64,000 nucleotides of DNA from Microbacteriaceae bacterium VKM Ac-2855 (lineage in GTDB: Bacteria; Actinomycetota; Actinomycetes; Actinomycetales; Microbacteriaceae), in the NCBI GenBank assembly GCA_013204985.1, contig JABMLG010000007.1, positions 171,458-235,457 on the forward strand, read 5' to 3'. The notes under the pieces were generated by a model. It was given only the letters and a program-made list of their open reading frames with translations, had not been told where the DNA came from and did no database searches. A program made the translations under genes and the position numbers. Of this stretch, positions 11,632 to 17,987 are shown piece by piece. Numbering within the stretch: the first letter of the stretch is position 1; the number at the start of each line of letters is the position of its first letter.

Positions 11632-12498
11632 TCAGACGGCGGCACCTGCGAAGAGCACGTCGTCGCTCGCGACCAGGTCCTCGAGCATGAGGATGCGGGT
11701 GAGGTCGTGGCCTGCCGCGATCGCCAGCGCGTGCTGCTCGGGAGTCTGCGGGGCGAGGCGCCCCTCGAGGAAGCCGCCGAACGCGCGCACGGCGCAGGCG
11801 GCGACGATTCCTTCGGGCGTGCCACCGACACCCATCACGAGGTCGACGTCGCCCAGCGGATCCGCGGCTTCGATCGCGACGGAGACGTCCCCTTCGCCGC
11901 GCAGCAGCAGGATGCATCCGCTCGCTCGCAGCTCGTCGACGAGCGCGGTGTGCCGGGGCTTGTCGAGCACCGCGACGCGCAGAGCGGCGACGGGTTTGCC
12001 CAGGGCGGCCGCCAGGCGGGTCACGTTCTCGGTCGGCGTCGCGTCGAGCTCGAGTACGCCGTGCCCCGCCGCCGAGGCCACCAGTTTCTGCATGTAGAAC
12101 ACATCCCGCGGGTCGAACATGCTGCCGCGCGGCGCGAGCGCGATCACGCACACCGAGCCGGGCACGCCCTCGGCCGTCAGCCGGGTTCCGTCGAGCGGGT
12201 CGACGGCGATATCGCATTCGATGCCGCCGCGACCGAGGCGCTCGCCGTTCGCGAGCATCGGCGCCTCGTCCTTCTCGCCCTCGCCGATCACGACGGTGCC
12301 GGCGAAGGGGGCGTCGAGCAGCACCGCACGCATCGCCGCGACCGAGGCTTCATCGGCCGCGTTCTTGTCGCCGCGGCCGTACCAGTCGCGTGCCGCGACC
12401 GCCGCCGCGCGCACGGATGCGGCGACCGCCTCGCGCAGCGCGTCGTCGTACCGTTCGCTCGCGATCATCCGCACGTCACTGCCCGCTGCATCCGTCAC
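11632..12498 (-). CDS. glpX: class II fructose-1,6-bisphosphatase GlpX, C-terminally short
   Basis: The 288-residue product carries the GlpX signatures GDKNAADEASV, GEGEKDEAPML, AVDPLDGT and GVGGTPEG, i.e. the metal-binding and catalytic Asp/Glu residues of the class II enzyme that dephosphorylates fructose 1,6-bisphosphate in gluconeogenesis. It ends at ...DDVLFAGAAV, about 40 residues before the usual end of the family, so the final strand/loop region is absent. The GTG start lies six bases after TAGGGT, a leaderless arrangement. It may be a divergent paralogue rather than the housekeeping copy. Confidence 0.85.
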   Translation of the reverse strand: MTDAAGSDVRMIASERYDDALREAVAASVRAAAVAARDWYGRGDKNAADEASVAAMRAVLLDAPFAGTVVIGEGEKDEAPMLANGERLGRGGIECDIAVDPLDGTRLTAEGVPGSVCVIALAPRGSMFDPRDVFYMQKLVASAAGHGVLELDATPTENVTRLAAALGKPVAALRVAVLDKPRHTALVDELRASGCILLLRGEGDVSVAIEAADPLGDVDLVMGVGGTPEGIVAACAVRAFGGFLEGRLAPQTPEQHALAIAAGHDLTRILMLEDLVASDDVLFAGAAV

Positions 12499-12560
12499 CC
12501 GCCCACCCTAGCGACGGGCGCTCACGCGGGGCGCCGGCTCGCGCGGCTGACCGCGGAGCG

Positions 12561-14450
12561 TCAGACCGAGGCGGGCTGCCGGGTGGCCGCGCGGACGAGT
12601 CGCTCGAGGGTGACCAGTCCGTCGGAGGAGAGCACCGACTCGAGGTGACCCTGCACCGACGCGACGCCGTCGCCGCGCAGGGCGTTGACGACCCCGGTCG
12701 ACCGATCGGCCGAGATCTCGAGCTCGAGGGCCGGGGTGACGAGTTGGTCGGCCGACGCGACCGAGGAGAACGTGTTGTAGAAGCCGATCGCCGCATCCGC
12801 ACCGAACACGTCGACCGCGAGGCGCACGCCCTGCCGAGGCGCGGGCAGCGGCTCGACCGGCAGCCCTGCCATCAGCGAGAGCATCTGGTGGCTGAGGCAC
12901 ACCGCCAGCAGCGGCCGCCGCGCCTCGAGACGCTCCGTCATCAGCTCGCGCAGGCGCAGCATCCGCGGGTCGGAGGCGTCGCGCGGGTCGCCAGGGCCGG
13001 GACCGAAGATCACGAGCTCGTCACTGACGACCTCCGCCACGTCCGACCAGCGCTCGACACGGGCATCCATACCGAGGTGGCGCAGCTGGTGCGCGAGCAT
13101 GATGGTGAACTGGTCCTCGTTGTCCACGATCAGGGCCCGGTGGCCGGCGAGACCCTCGATGTGCTCGGGCGCCTGCGGTCGCAGCCAGAACGCGGCGAGC
13201 CGATCGTTGCGCGCTTCGAGCGCCTCCGCGACGCCGGGCACCGCGTTCAGGTCGACCGCCGGAGGGATCTGCCGAGCGGGCAGCAGGCCGAGAGCCGAGA
13301 GAACGCCCGACGCCTTCGCCCGGGTCTCTGCGACTTCGCCCTCGGGCGTCGAGTGCCGCACCAATGTCGCGCCGGCGGGCACCGTGAGGCGGCCGCCCTC
13401 GTGCAGATAGGCGGTGCGGATGAGGATGGGCGCGTCGACCCCGTACCGCAGCTCGCCCTCGGTGCTCTCGGGCTCGAACAGGGCGAGCACGCCGGAGTAG
13501 TAGCCGCGCGGCTGCTTCTCGTACTCGGCGATCACGGTGCAGGCGTTCTCCATTGGGGAGCCGGTCACCGTCGGCGCGAACATCGTCAGCCGCAGCACCT
13601 CGCGCACGTCGAGTTCGGTGTGGCCTTCGAGAAGGTATTCGGTGTGGCTCAATCGCGACATCTGCTTGAGGTACGGGCCGAGGATGCGCCCGCCGCCGGG
13701 GCAGACGGCGCTCATCATCTTCATCTCCTCGTCGACCACCATGAAGAGCTCCTCGCTCTCCTTGATGTCGGCGAGGAAGGCCAGCACCTCCTCGCCGGTG
13801 GGGCCGGCGGCGGGGTGGCGGAAGGTGCCGCTGATCGGGTTCATCATGGCCACTCCGTCCGAGACGGAGACGTGCCGCTCGGGGGTCGCTCCCACGGCCG
13901 AGACCTGGGCGCCGGCGCCGGCGGGCGTGTGCACGGCGAAGGTCCAGTACGCCCCGGATTCGTCGGTCAGCAATCGCCGGAACCAGGCGAGCAATGCGCT
14001 GACGGGCGCCGCATCCGTGTGGGCGACGAAGGAGCGCGCGATCACGAAGTTCGCGCCCTGGCCGGTGCCGATCTCGTCGTCGATGACGCGGCGCACGATG
14101 TCGGCGTACTCCTCATCGGGCACGTCGAAGCCGCGCTCCTGCACCGGGATCTCCACGTCGGGCAGCAGCTCCAGCACCGTCGCGAGCGGCAGCGACTCGC
14201 GCTCGCGGACGATGATGCAGCGCAGTGGCGCGCCGTCGTCCTGGGCGTCGAAGCCGCGCTCGCGCACCTGGCGGTAGGGCACGAGGGTGAGCACGTCGGC
14301 GCCGTCGAGCGGGATGTCGGCCAGGCCCTCGACGTCGACGACGTCGCCGGTGAGCACGTCGACGTGACCGGAGGCCTGCGTCTGCCGGCGGATGACGGCG
14401 AACGGCATCGAGCCGTCGGAGGCGAGGATGCGGGTGAGGAGCGAGGTCAT
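12561..14450 (-). CDS. fused anthranilate-synthase-type enzyme (TrpEG/PhzE-like)
   Basis: The 629-residue protein joins a chorismate-binding TrpE-like domain (about residues 1-430, with NPISGTFRHP, MVVDEEMKMMSAVCPGGGRI and FAPTVTGSPMENAC) to a class I glutamine amidotransferase (about 435-629) with nucleophile Cys in LAVCLSHQML and the His/Glu pair in SVQGHLES. Such fusions make anthranilate or, in phenazine pathways, 2-amino-2-deoxyisochorismate. A Trp-rich leader peptide and terminator directly upstream argue for anthranilate and tryptophan control; no phenazine genes are present. AAGGA lies six bases before the ATG. Confidence 0.85.
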   Translation of the reverse strand: MTSLLTRILASDGSMPFAVIRRQTQASGHVDVLTGDVVDVEGLADIPLDGADVLTLVPYRQVRERGFDAQDDGAPLRCIIVRERESLPLATVLELLPDVEIPVQERGFDVPDEEYADIVRRVIDDEIGTGQGANFVIARSFVAHTDAAPVSALLAWFRRLLTDESGAYWTFAVHTPAGAGAQVSAVGATPERHVSVSDGVAMMNPISGTFRHPAAGPTGEEVLAFLADIKESEELFMVVDEEMKMMSAVCPGGGRILGPYLKQMSRLSHTEYLLEGHTELDVREVLRLTMFAPTVTGSPMENACTVIAEYEKQPRGYYSGVLALFEPESTEGELRYGVDAPILIRTAYLHEGGRLTVPAGATLVRHSTPEGEVAETRAKASGVLSALGLLPARQIPPAVDLNAVPGVAEALEARNDRLAAFWLRPQAPEHIEGLAGHRALIVDNEDQFTIMLAHQLRHLGMDARVERWSDVAEVVSDELVIFGPGPGDPRDASDPRMLRLRELMTERLEARRPLLAVCLSHQMLSLMAGLPVEPLPAPRQGVRLAVDVFGADAAIGFYNTFSSVASADQLVTPALELEISADRSTGVVNALRGDGVASVQGHLESVLSSDGLVTLERLVRAATRQPASV

Positions 14451-14489
14451 CGGTGGTCCTTGAATCTGGACTTCCTCACCCGAGGCCCT

Positions 14490-14523
14490 GACAAACAGAA
14501 CGACCGCCCGGTGAGGCGGTCGT
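14490..14523 (-). terminator. attenuator terminator of the trp-type leader
   Basis: On the minus strand the stem ACGACCGCC / GGCGGTCGT with a six-base loop is followed by TTCTGTTTGT, an intrinsic terminator placed between leader peptide and structural gene. An upstream GGCGG right after the leader stop codon can pair with the CCGCC of its 5' arm, giving the alternative antiterminator. Confidence 0.8.
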
Positions 14524-14549
14524 GTGCAGGGTTCTGCGCGTCGGTCCGC

Positions 14550-14591
14550 CTAGGAGGCGGGCCACCAGGAGAGGTGAGTCGACATGCGCAT
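14550..14591 (-). CDS. trpL: tryptophan leader peptide with tandem Trp codons (13 aa)
   Basis: The frame encodes MRMSTHLSWWPAS: two adjacent TGG codons precede the stop by three sense codons, as in classical trp attenuator peptides. It is followed by the pairing segments and terminator at 14490-14523 and then by the fused TrpEG-type gene. A second in-frame ATG at 14585 is possible. The ATG lies six bases after a TAGACT -10 box, so the leader mRNA would be leaderless. Confidence 0.8.
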   Translation of the reverse strand: MRMSTHLSWWPAS

Positions 14592-14597
14592 GCGGGG

Positions 14598-14627
14598 AGT
14601 CTAGCGCCGAGGCGGCGCGGCGGCCAA
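14598..14627 (-). promoter_or_regulatory. promoter of the trp-type leader; -10 box contains upstream stop codon
   Basis: On the minus strand TTGGCC (weak -35, 14622-14627) is followed after 18 bases by TAGACT (-10, 14598-14603). The TAG of the -10 hexamer is also the stop codon of the EI24-like gene. Six bases separate the -10 box from the leader ATG. Confidence 0.6.
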
Positions 14628-15398
14628 GTCGGATGCGCGGGCGACTCCGGTCTCTTCGCCGCGCAGCTCGCGAAGCAGCAGGGTCGCGCCGGCGGTGGCG
14701 GCGGGCGTGGTGACCACGGCGCCGCCGGGGATGAGGAAGGTGAGGTAGACCGCGATGCCGAAACCGAGGGACAGACCGCGACGCGACGCGAGCAGCCGGC
14801 GGCGCTCCCGCAGGCTCAGTCCCCGGGCGTCGCCCGCGAATCCGCTCAATTCGATCGCCAGCGTGCGCCCGCCGACCAGGGCGCCCGCGACGATGCCCGC
14901 GATCTGGCCGACGACGGGGACGAACCCGATCGCGAACACCAGGATCGCGATCAGCAGCGATGTCGCCACGAGCACGATCCCGTCTCGGACGGCTCGTCGG
15001 ACCCCGGGCCAGAACGCCGTCTCGACCTCGTCGGGCACGCCGCCCAGGTCGGTTTCGACGCGGCGCCAGATCCGCTCGTAGAAAGGGTCGCCCACGGCGA
15101 GGGTGACCGCGGCGAAAAGGGCTATGAGCAGCACTCCGGCGGCGGCGAGGAGGGCGATTCCGGCGAGGATCCGCGTCGTCTCGGCCCACGGCGGCGCCCA
15201 GTCGTCGGCGAACGGAGTGACGGCGGCGGCGAGCCCGGTGAGATTCGTGATCAGAACGACGAAACCGGCGACGAAGACCGCGCCGACCACGAGCGGCGGG
15301 ATCGCGCCCCACAGCATCAGCTTCGGCGACCGGCCCCACATCCGGAAACCGCGGCCGAACAGGCGGATGCCCAACGCCGCGTCACGCACGATTCTCAC
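14601..15398 (-). CDS. EI24/CysZ-like integral membrane protein
   Basis: The 265-residue protein has about five long hydrophobic segments and the GDPFYERIWRRVE and FVPVVGQIAGIVAGALVG regions characteristic of the EI24 (CysZ-related) family, whose CysZ members carry sulfate; the substrate here is unknown. The GTG at 15398 was preferred over an upstream GTG (15416) because CAGAAT stands six bases before it, the leaderless geometry repeated in this window. Its TAG stop is part of the promoter of the trp leader. Confidence 0.8.
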   Translation of the reverse strand: MRIVRDAALGIRLFGRGFRMWGRSPKLMLWGAIPPLVVGAVFVAGFVVLITNLTGLAAAVTPFADDWAPPWAETTRILAGIALLAAAGVLLIALFAAVTLAVGDPFYERIWRRVETDLGGVPDEVETAFWPGVRRAVRDGIVLVATSLLIAILVFAIGFVPVVGQIAGIVAGALVGGRTLAIELSGFAGDARGLSLRERRRLLASRRGLSLGFGIAVYLTFLIPGGAVVTTPAATAGATLLLRELRGEETGVARASDLAAAPPRR

Positions 15399-15443
15399 GG
15401 TTCGATTCTGTCGCACGGCTGGCCGCGTGGGGCGGGGTTGCGG

Positions 15444-15545
15444 CTCAGCTCGGGATGCGGCTCAGCTCGGGATGCGGCTCAGCTCGGGATGCGGCTCAGC
15501 TCGCATTGCGGCTCAGCTCGGGATGAGGCTCAGCTCGGGATGAGG
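15444..15545. repeat. six 17-bp tandem repeats running into the end of a lipoprotein gene
   Basis: The unit ctcagctcgggatgcgg occurs six times without spacers; copies 1-3 are identical, copy 4 has two changes, copies 5-6 end in gatgagg. The last copy contains the complement of the final codons and stop of the lipoprotein gene (stop at 15530-15532), so the array looks like repeated duplication of the gene's 3' tip. Confidence 0.95.
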
Positions 15546-16015
15546 ACGGCGTAGCCGCTCGTGACGCCTGACGCGGTCGGGGCGGAACTCAACGAGAACG
15601 GGCCCGACATGATCTCGCCGGTCGCGTACACCGCGGTGTGCTCCGTGCCGTCGCACGGGATGACCACGTCCATGCCGCCGCTGGCCGCCTCCACCGGCGT
15701 GAACGACATCTGTGCGATCGGTCCGTCCGGCGAAACGCAGGCGCCGACGACGCGCAGGCCCAGCACCTGCGACAGCTGGTGGCCGGCGGACGCCGAGACG
15801 GCGCCGTCGGCGACGGTGAGGCGGAAGAGCTCGGCATCGCCGGGTGCGGGGATGACGAGGCCGGGCGGCGGTGTCGGTTCCGGCGTCGGTTCCGGCGTCG
15901 CCGAGGCGGTCGGCGCGTCGGATCCGGCGCTCACCGGACCCGAGACATCGGCGGAGCAGCCGGCGAGGGCCAGCGCGGCGAGAGCCAGGGCGAGTCGTGC
16001 GGATGCGCGGTTCAT
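15530..16015 (-). CDS. small secreted lipoprotein
   Basis: The 161-residue protein begins with a lipoprotein signal peptide ending in LAGC (Cys20), then a Ser/Thr/Pro-rich linker (TPEPTPEPTPPP, encoded by a small internal repeat) and a domain of about 110 residues with two cysteines. No family recognised. It is the last gene of the transporter cluster, 49 bases after the ABC gene, and has AAAGGA before its ATG. Its position suggests an extracytoplasmic role with the exporter; this is inference. Confidence 0.75.
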   Translation of the reverse strand: MNRASARLALALAALALAGCSADVSGPVSAGSDAPTASATPEPTPEPTPPPGLVIPAPGDAELFRLTVADGAVSASAGHQLSQVLGLRVVGACVSPDGPIAQMSFTPVEAASGGMDVVIPCDGTEHTAVYATGEIMSGPFSLSSAPTASGVTSGYAVLIPS

Positions 16016-16064
16016 AGTCGGTCCTTTCGAGGGGCGTCGGTCGGATCAGCGGTAGTCGCGAGGC

Positions 16065-17987
16065 TCACGCGCGCACGGCCTCGGCCGGGTCGATGCTCGC
16101 GGCCCGGAGCGCCGGGGCGAGCGCGGCGAGGACGCCCGTGGTAGCGCCGGCGACGAGCCCCGTCGCGAGAGTGTCCGGCGAGATGACAGGGACCCAGCCC
16201 TGGTGCGCGCTGACGATCGTGATGACGGCGAGGCCCGTCGCGATGCCGGCGAGCCCGCCCGCGGTGCCGATGAGGAGTCCCTCGAGCACGAACATCGCGG
16301 TCGTGGCGGCGCGGCCGGAGCCGAGTGCGCGTCGCAGGCCGATCTCGGCGGTGCGGGCCTGGACGGCGAGGAACATGATCGCGGAGGCGCTGACGCACGA
16401 GAGACCGAGCAGCACCCAGGCGATGCCGGCGACGAACGAGGTCAGATCATCCGCGACCCCCTGGCGCAGGTGCCGGAGGTCGACGGCGGTGTTCACGGTC
16501 ACGGATCCCGGCGCGCCAGGATCGATCGCGGTCGGGATCACCTCGGCGAGCGCACTCGGGAAGCCGAGATCCGTGCGGGCGACGAGGGAGCGGTCGACGC
16601 CCGCGATCACGTCGGAAACGGCGTGCGAGACGAAGACGCTGTGCCGCAGTTCGGGGAGCCGGCCGGTCTCCGCGATCATCCCGATGACATCGACGGCGCG
16701 CCCGCCGATCCAGATCTGGCTGCCCGGCCCGATACGCGAGAGCCCGAGAGCTTCGGCCGCCTGATCGCCGACGAGGGCGTAGCGGCCAGTGCGGTCGGGC
16801 GCGAACCACTCCGCGGCACTGGTGGGCTCGGTCACCACGCCTGAGAGGGCGAGGTAGTGATCGTCTCCTCCGAGCATCGTCGTGGTGCTCTCGTCGTGCA
16901 GCTGCGCCGCTCCGGGGCGGAGCGTGGTCAGGTTGCCGTCCGCTGCGGCGATGCTGTCGCGCCGGCCGACGTCGATGATGTGGTCGATCGTTCGAACGCG
17001 CTCGATCGCCTGCGCCTGGGCCGCGGATCGCAGCGCCGGATCGGGTTCGGCCGGCAGCACGATGGAGAGTTCATCGAGAGCGGAGCGGGCCAGCCGCTGC
17101 GAAACCTGATTCGCCGTCGTCTCGCTGAGGCCGACCGCCGCGACGAGGCTCCCGGTGCCGACCAGGAACGCGAGCAGGAGGAACAGGACGCGCGCGGGCC
17201 GCAGAGTCAGCGCCGAGACGGCGTCGCCAACGATGCCGAGGGCGGCGCGCCCGGCGGATCCGCGGATGGTTTCGGTCGCGGCGGTCGCGGCGGCGGATCG
17301 TGTCACGGAGCCGGTATCGGCGGCGACGACGCCGTCATCGATGGTGACCTGCCGCTCGGCCGCAGCGGCCACTCGCGGATCGTGAGTGATGACGATGACG
17401 GTGGCGCCGTCGCGGTGCAGCGCGCTCAGGAGGCGGATGACCTCGTCGCTGTTGCCGCTGTCGAGGTTGCCCGTGGGCTCGTCGGCGAGGATGACGTCGG
17501 GTGCGGTGGCCACGGCGCGGGCGAGCGCGAGCCGCTGGCGCTCGCCGCCGGACAGCGATCGGCCGGAGGCGTTCGCGCGATGGCTCAGACCGAGACGGCC
17601 CAGAGCGTTCCCCACGGCGGACTCTTGCGCCGAACGGCCCACGCCGAGAATCCGTAGCCCGACAGCGGCGTTGCGGGCGACGGAGTCGTCCGGCAGCACA
17701 TGGCTCGACTGGAACACGAAGCCGAACGTCCGCGAGCGGAGCGAGTCGCGCTGCCGATCGCGAAGCGAGCCCGCATCCGTGCCATCGATCAGGTACGAGC
17801 CGGAAGTGGGAGCATCGAGCAGCCCGAGCACATTCAGCAGCGTCGATTTGCCGGCGCCGGAAGGGCCGACGATCGCGACGAATTCTCCGCGGTCTACGGA
17901 GAGATCGATGCCGGCGAGAGCCGCGGTCGTGCCGGGCCCGGTGCCGTAGACGCGCCGCGCACCGTGAAGCTCGAGCAGAGGGCTCAC
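16065..17987 (-). CDS. MacB-like ABC transporter, ATPase fused to permease
   Basis: The 640-residue protein has an N-terminal ATPase (Walker A GPSGAGKST, signature LSGGERQRLALA, Walker B VILADEPT, H-loop VITHD) and a C-terminal permease with one helix near residue 260, a large extracytoplasmic MacB_PCD-type domain, and three helices of FtsX type near the end (EIGLRRALGSGR between them). MacB-type transporters act as mechanotransmitters that drive export of peptides, lipoproteins or drugs from outside the membrane. The GTG start overlaps the adaptor stop by four bases. Confidence 0.9.
   Translation of the reverse strand: MSPLLELHGARRVYGTGPGTTAALAGIDLSVDRGEFVAIVGPSGAGKSTLLNVLGLLDAPTSGSYLIDGTDAGSLRDRQRDSLRSRTFGFVFQSSHVLPDDSVARNAAVGLRILGVGRSAQESAVGNALGRLGLSHRANASGRSLSGGERQRLALARAVATAPDVILADEPTGNLDSGNSDEVIRLLSALHRDGATVIVITHDPRVAAAAERQVTIDDGVVAADTGSVTRSAAATAATETIRGSAGRAALGIVGDAVSALTLRPARVLFLLLAFLVGTGSLVAAVGLSETTANQVSQRLARSALDELSIVLPAEPDPALRSAAQAQAIERVRTIDHIIDVGRRDSIAAADGNLTTLRPGAAQLHDESTTTMLGGDDHYLALSGVVTEPTSAAEWFAPDRTGRYALVGDQAAEALGLSRIGPGSQIWIGGRAVDVIGMIAETGRLPELRHSVFVSHAVSDVIAGVDRSLVARTDLGFPSALAEVIPTAIDPGAPGSVTVNTAVDLRHLRQGVADDLTSFVAGIAWVLLGLSCVSASAIMFLAVQARTAEIGLRRALGSGRAATTAMFVLEGLLIGTAGGLAGIATGLAVITIVSAHQGWVPVISPDTLATGLVAGATTGVLAALAPALRAASIDPAEAVRA

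Follow-up and report, generated by a model that had tools for sequence, protein, structure and literature searches.

Among the closest described systems is the trpL1 leader of Streptomyces lividans, in which, according to excerpts of PMC8079986, a leaderless leader peptide (MFAHSTRNWWWTAHPAAH) and a terminator stand ahead of a monocistronic trpE (SLIV_27122/27120). The available passages of PMC1262725 describe tryptophan attenuators studied experimentally in Corynebacterium glutamicum and Streptomyces venezuelae, with others predicted in Corynebacterium and Streptomyces. As described there, the Corynebacterium attenuators share repeated UGG leader codons, a terminator and an antiterminator with the locus reported here, although they precede trp operons and not a single fused gene, whilst the S. 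venezuelae attenuator (Lin et al. 1998, cited in PMC1262725) likewise stands before an anthranilate synthase gene but belongs to another family. In the open-licence literature no paper on the present leader in Microbacteriaceae was found among the matches listed. Leifsonia xyli is a member of the Microbacteriaceae. It is named among the genomes surveyed in the same excerpts of PMC1262725.

The locus lies on the minus strand of a stretch of 64,000 nucleotides from Microbacteriaceae bacterium VKM Ac-2855 (the window; Table 1). A sequence-only reading of this DNA had proposed a 13-codon frame with tandem TGG codons, a GGCGG segment, an intrinsic terminator and a fused TrpE-TrpG-type gene, and inspection of the sequence found every element in its place. 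The locus has two features of a trpL-type leader, a short frame with adjacent Trp codons shortly before a trp gene and an intrinsic terminator between the two. As trpL1 of S. lividans has been mapped as leaderless before trpE (PMC8079986, in excerpt), a leaderless Trp leader in this position is already known and the device in the window is of the same kind, with a predicted leaderless Trp leader peptide, a terminator and then the probable anthranilate synthase gene. By the excerpts of that paper, trpL1 is the longer of the two leaders and has three Trp codons, whereas the leader in the window has two and ends in WWPAS before its stop, and in the window, unlike in trpL1, the G of the leader stop codon begins segment 2. 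It is very likely that the locus is a ribosome-mediated (Yanofsky-type) attenuator with a leaderless peptide, controlling what is probably the only anthranilate synthase of the cell.

Table 1. Elements of the leader locus and its neighbours, in window coordinates
Feature	Position	Strand	Basis or remark
-35-like element TTGGCC	14622..14627	-	TTGGCCGC runs on to 14620; inside EI24-like CDS
Spacer, -35-like TTGGCC to -10 box	18 nt	-	sequence
-10 box TAGACT	14598..14603	-	its TAG (14603..14601) doubles as EI24-like stop codon
CCCCGC (6 nt) between TAGACT and leader ATG 14591		-	sequence
Leader peptide ORF MRMSTHLSWWPAS plus stop, 13 codons	14550..14591	-	predicted leaderless, start = predicted +1
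Leader stop TAG	14552..14550	-	sequence
Tandem UGG control codons	14562..14567	-	sequence; alignment
Segment 1 CCCGCC	14556..14561	-	partner is segment 2; fold and covariation
Segment 2 GGCGG	14546..14550	-	first G is last base of leader stop; partner is segment 1 or 3
Segment 3 CCGCC, terminator 5' arm	14515..14519	-	partner is segment 2 or 4
Intrinsic terminator stem-loop (segments 3:4), 10 pairs	14500..14523	-	T-rich tail to 14490
Fused TrpE-TrpG-type (PhzE-like) gene, 629 aa	12561..14450	-	PF00425 and PF00117; ATG at 14450
EI24/CysZ-like membrane protein, 271 aa (PF07264)	14601..15416	-	outside control device
GlpX-type fructose bisphosphatase gene	11632..12498	-	62 nt downstream of fused gene

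For comparison, loci were taken from 199 Microbacteriaceae genomes (sampled from more, 24 with the fused gene) and from the best 80 of 138 relatives, and as these relatives were sought via patterns from the window protein the distant ones are under-represented. Of the resulting 104 loci, 8 duplicate upstream regions were merged to leave 96 distinct regions, and 95 were usable since one (L109) begins inside the gene and was left out of the counts. Other genera share the leader with its box and its stems. On a protein tree of 94 rows, built by a quick method without L017 and L109 (both too short), the leader label needs 3 changes compared with 21.5 when labels are shuffled. In L017 (genome G148) an in-frame TAG interrupts the fused gene, and canonical TrpE is retained.

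The fused protein carries a chorismate-binding domain and a glutamine amidotransferase domain, and its closest solved structure is PhzE, an ADIC synthase (PDB 3r74; 532 bits over residues 7-624) of the phenazine pathway. This homology over almost the whole length and both domains places it in the family of PhzE and fused anthranilate synthases, and it scores only 102.7 bits with the canonical TrpE model NF010086 (more than 693 bits required). Excerpts of PMC5958127 state that the sequence gives no hint as to why PhzE stops at ADIC, and sequence alone cannot tell an anthranilate synthase from an ADIC synthase. The enzyme could be an ADIC synthase of the PhzE type, serving a secondary pathway and only incidentally regulated by tryptophan, as the nearest structure might suggest, and among the best 25 of 41 NCBIfam families no model, those for anthranilate synthase included, reached its cut-off for the fused protein. 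Against this, the gene is not part of a phz cluster, its direct neighbours being those for EI24 and GlpX, and excerpts of PMC5897657 regard the fused enzyme of S. venezuelae as an anthranilate synthase. A profile search of the genome for PhzA/B (PF03284) found nothing, which is uninformative because its control was likewise silent everywhere.

The Streptomyces relatives also bear on the product. The sequence-only reading had taken it as known that such leaders precede fused anthranilate synthases in Streptomyces, and 12 of the 18 Streptomyces loci have a WWW leader before the fused gene. The remaining 6 have no leader, and in each of them an isochorismatase gene adjoins the fused gene on its upstream side, which is what phenazine-like clusters would show; the 12 leader-bearing loci form another clade. 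These homologues beside an isochorismatase are without the leader, whereas the gene in the window has one. Absence of the leader need not by itself imply a phenazine enzyme, and 17 loci of Ornithinimicrobium, Serinicoccus, Ornithinicoccus and Kytococcus are also without one.

The gene content of the genome also speaks for an anthranilate synthase. A PF00425 profile search of the same genome returned three genes only, namely PabB (333 bits, cut-off 328), isochorismate synthase (272 bits, cut-off 225) and the fused gene, and searches with NF010086 and PF00425 found no canonical TrpE. The genes trpB, trpD, trpC and trpA are all present, with trpD away from a his-trp operon that runs hisF, hisI, Trp_oprn_chp, trpC, trpB and trpA and is missing trpE. 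In a relative (G123) trpE stands between hisI and the Trp_oprn_chp homologue, the place where in this genome 7 nt separate the hisI stop from the likely ATG of the next gene. Across the sampled genomes, with canonical TrpE counted as present when the best NF010086 E-value was below 1e-100, it is missing from 11 of the 24 with the fused gene as against 12 of the 175 others (Fisher p 4e-6, uncorrected for kinship). Those 11 genomes span 5 genera, and the other 13 of the 24 keep canonical TrpE alongside the fused gene; among the 12 with neither enzyme, four (G009, G061, G114, G170) are at most 90% complete. Genus g48 is itself divided: one of its genomes carries the fused gene and lacks canonical TrpE, and the reverse is true of two others.

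As canonical TrpE was not found whilst the other trp genes are present, and given the 11 of 24 against 12 of 175, tryptophan synthesis in this genome most likely depends on the fused enzyme as its anthranilate synthase, a product assigned by elimination on a background of plain homology to PhzE, and it is probably the only one in the cell. The ADIC synthase alternative is accordingly very improbable, and the sequence-only reading is supported, as far as these genes tell, in favouring anthranilate over a phenazine precursor.

The RNA of the leader region is strongly structured, with a fold of -52.6 kcal/mol (z -4.1 against shuffles), and one terminator-like site lies in the 351 bases scanned where 0.1 would be expected. 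Both conformations of an attenuator were obtained on folding pieces of the leader. The RNA 14554..14508, which would be free under a stalled ribosome, has the 2:3 antiterminator helix as its minimum free energy structure (-16.2 kcal/mol), and the RNA 14566..14490 folds into 1:2 plus the terminator (-38.8 kcal/mol). When segment 1 is hidden with the terminator 3' arm present (14554..14490) the terminator is preferred, so antitermination must be decided during transcription, before the 3' arm is made.

Covariation was examined in an alignment of 54 leaders, that is 71 leaders minus 6 identical copies and minus the 11 remaining Streptomyces leaders; TGGTGG is present in all 54, the leaders having been cut to begin there. 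Over stems 1:2 and 3:4 together, 92.7% of cells hold standard pairs, compared with 89.8% in shuffled alignments and at most 59.6% when the pairing is slid. Five pairs, with 17 cells, show two-sided changes, a figure matched by none of 500 shuffles, with further pair types matched by 11 of 500. In the 1:2 stem the covarying pairs are 7-23 (CG/AU/UA), which is unpaired in 32 of the 54 leaders, and 8-22 (CG/UA). Both stems of the putative terminator state thus covary in the alignment. The 2:3 antiterminator is complementary in 92.9% of cells (at most 63.3% slid) and had 0 two-sided changes, with 206 of 500 shuffles pairing equally well; the helix shows no covariation because it is almost invariant.

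A covariance model built from the 54 leaders has a single match at E <= 0.01 in the 4.7-Mb genome, at the site in the window (E 4e-13), a sequence which is itself among those used to build the model. Of the 24 sampled Microbacteriaceae genomes that carry the fused gene, 23 gave a match in the proposed search, and these matches show uniqueness and not independent recovery because they are training sequences or identical copies. The exception, G027, is a genome of 1.4 Mb with a divergent fused gene (L024), in which neither leader nor canonical TrpE was found. An Rfam search of 12000..17000 returned no described family at the leader, the only hit being mir-598, which lay off the leader and far below its gathering score.

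From these elements and their observed complementarity we infer ribosome stalling, termination and read-through. RNA polymerase would start at or beside the leader ATG, and a ribosome would initiate on the 5' AUG. With ample Trp-tRNA it would clear both UGG codons and run on past the stop, letting 1:2 pair and the 3:4 terminator form ahead of the gene. Under a shortage of Trp-tRNA it would instead stall on UGG UGG and mask segment 1, so that 2:3 could pair before segment 4 is made, no terminator would form and trpEG would be transcribed, its enzyme making anthranilate for tryptophan. The identification as a tryptophan attenuator made from the single locus is supported by the WW leaders of the relatives, by the covarying stems of the terminator state and by the gene content of the genomes.

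It might instead be assumed that control is mainly translational or Rho-dependent, and not exerted through the intrinsic terminator. The T-tract is interrupted at the terminator in the window and in many relatives, and a scan for a hairpin plus T-tract gave no result for many leader loci, though that scan required 5 T in 9 and overlooked many terminators, so that no count was taken from it. The 3:4 stem is, however, the better kept helix, with 96.1% of its cells paired, and it ends 50 nt short of the gene start, off the ribosome site; we therefore give translational or Rho-dependent control very little chance, and attenuation at the 3:4 terminator stays the preferred reading. In one locus (L019, genome G003) the leader is retained and the terminator 3' arm is degenerate.

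The start of the transcript is predicted from the spacing between a TANNNT box and the leader start codon. Of the 95 usable distinct upstream regions, the window included, 72 have a short frame in which Trp codons stand side by side, and 71 of these frames have a start codon 6-7 nt past a TANNNT box (6 nt in 37 loci, 7 nt in 34); the one WW frame without a box (L074) was counted as without a leader. In the same loci such a box precedes only 130 of 22,329 start codons (0.6%). As leader starts were picked with the box in view, a control on TGGTGG frames takes into account how many starts were available, and there 83 of 85 frames have the box against 1.2 expected, a count that includes some leaders twice and is uncorrected for kinship. 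In the nearest relative (L034) the leader reads MRTSTHLSWWPAS, so it is the first ATG and not the second that is the conserved leader start. In the window and its 9 nearest distinct relatives CTAGACT is invariant (10 of 10), as is TGGCCGC (10 of 10), with TTGGCC kept in 8 of 10 and the flanks and spacer variable.

An ordinary 5' UTR, with transcription beginning further upstream and a coincidental box spacing, would fit a strict sigma-70 scan that found 0 promoter sites at the leader and a start that is itself predicted, but it is hardly credible beside 71 boxes in 72 WW-frame regions, the promoter footprint conserved in 10 loci and the reports in excerpts of PMC8079986 that both trpL1 and trpL2 of S. 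lividans are leaderless. The predicted leaderless leader peptide is supported by the geometry of its relatives. The device mapped in Streptomyces is found also in Microbacteriaceae, Promicromonosporaceae, Cellulomonadaceae, Micrococcaceae and Brevibacteriaceae, with its promoter spacing in those families fixed at the leaderless geometry.

The sequence-only reading had further observed that the -10 box contains the codon at which the EI24-like gene ends, placing the promoter inside that gene. This is so in the window, but it does not stand as a general feature and is an accident of the strain. Among the same 10 loci the box takes in the EI24 stop in 3 (L004, which is the window, L007 and L060); in 5 (L005, L006, L036, L039, L064) the stop comes 15-34 nt before the box, and in the other 2 (L034, L058) EI24 is further away and no direct neighbour. 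A coupling device made of stop codon and box was therefore rejected, the promoter footprint being kept regardless, and the overlap is no part of the mechanism. Downstream, the GlpX gene follows the fused gene in 10 distinct loci, the window included, all of them from the Rathayibacter group, and within flanks of 1.5-3 kb was seen in no other locus; it may be cotranscribed with trpEG.

It seems that an attenuator-controlled enzyme of the PhzE type has replaced canonical TrpE in several Microbacteriaceae. The LLES motif, which we take to be the Trp feedback site of canonical TrpE, occurs in none of the 95 usable fused enzymes and in 13 of 13 canonical TrpE. It is conceivable, and put forward tentatively as a suggestion that may well prove wrong, that the lineage of the window, like some further Microbacteriaceae, dropped the canonical TrpE with LLES from its his-trp operon and came to use in its place a PhzE-type fused enzyme without LLES, under a leaderless attenuator. 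If so, control of entry to the trp pathway would have passed from end-product inhibition largely to the sensing of Trp-tRNA, and the leader would serve to mark off anthranilate synthases from ADIC synthases where the protein sequence fails to separate the two. The fused enzyme of S. venezuelae is reportedly still inhibited by tryptophan, which speaks against a complete loss of feedback. The leader also suggests a way of guessing what PhzE-like fused enzymes make, something that their protein sequence alone leaves hidden.

The covariance model also matched in 8 of the 175 sampled genomes without a full-length fused gene, 3 times before trpB, once before a methyltransferase, twice before mraZ, once at a site without Trp codons and once in G173. 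Those before mraZ and the one without Trp codons are probably chance. The 3 before trpB (L176, L177 and L179, in genomes G096, G158 and G136) have WW leaders and a hairpin, with a TANNNT box at 6-7 nt by eye and TrpB proteins downstream scoring 547-574 bits with TIGR00263 (cut-off 392). Other trp genes in Microbacteriaceae are therefore probably, to judge from these leaders, under leaderless Trp attenuators as well. In L175 (genome G089) a leader reading MHMTTAWWPTFSVG, a hairpin and a T-run stand ahead of a gene for a 234-aa Methyltransf_11 protein, and it is possible, from this arrangement, that the methyltransferase is Trp-attenuated.
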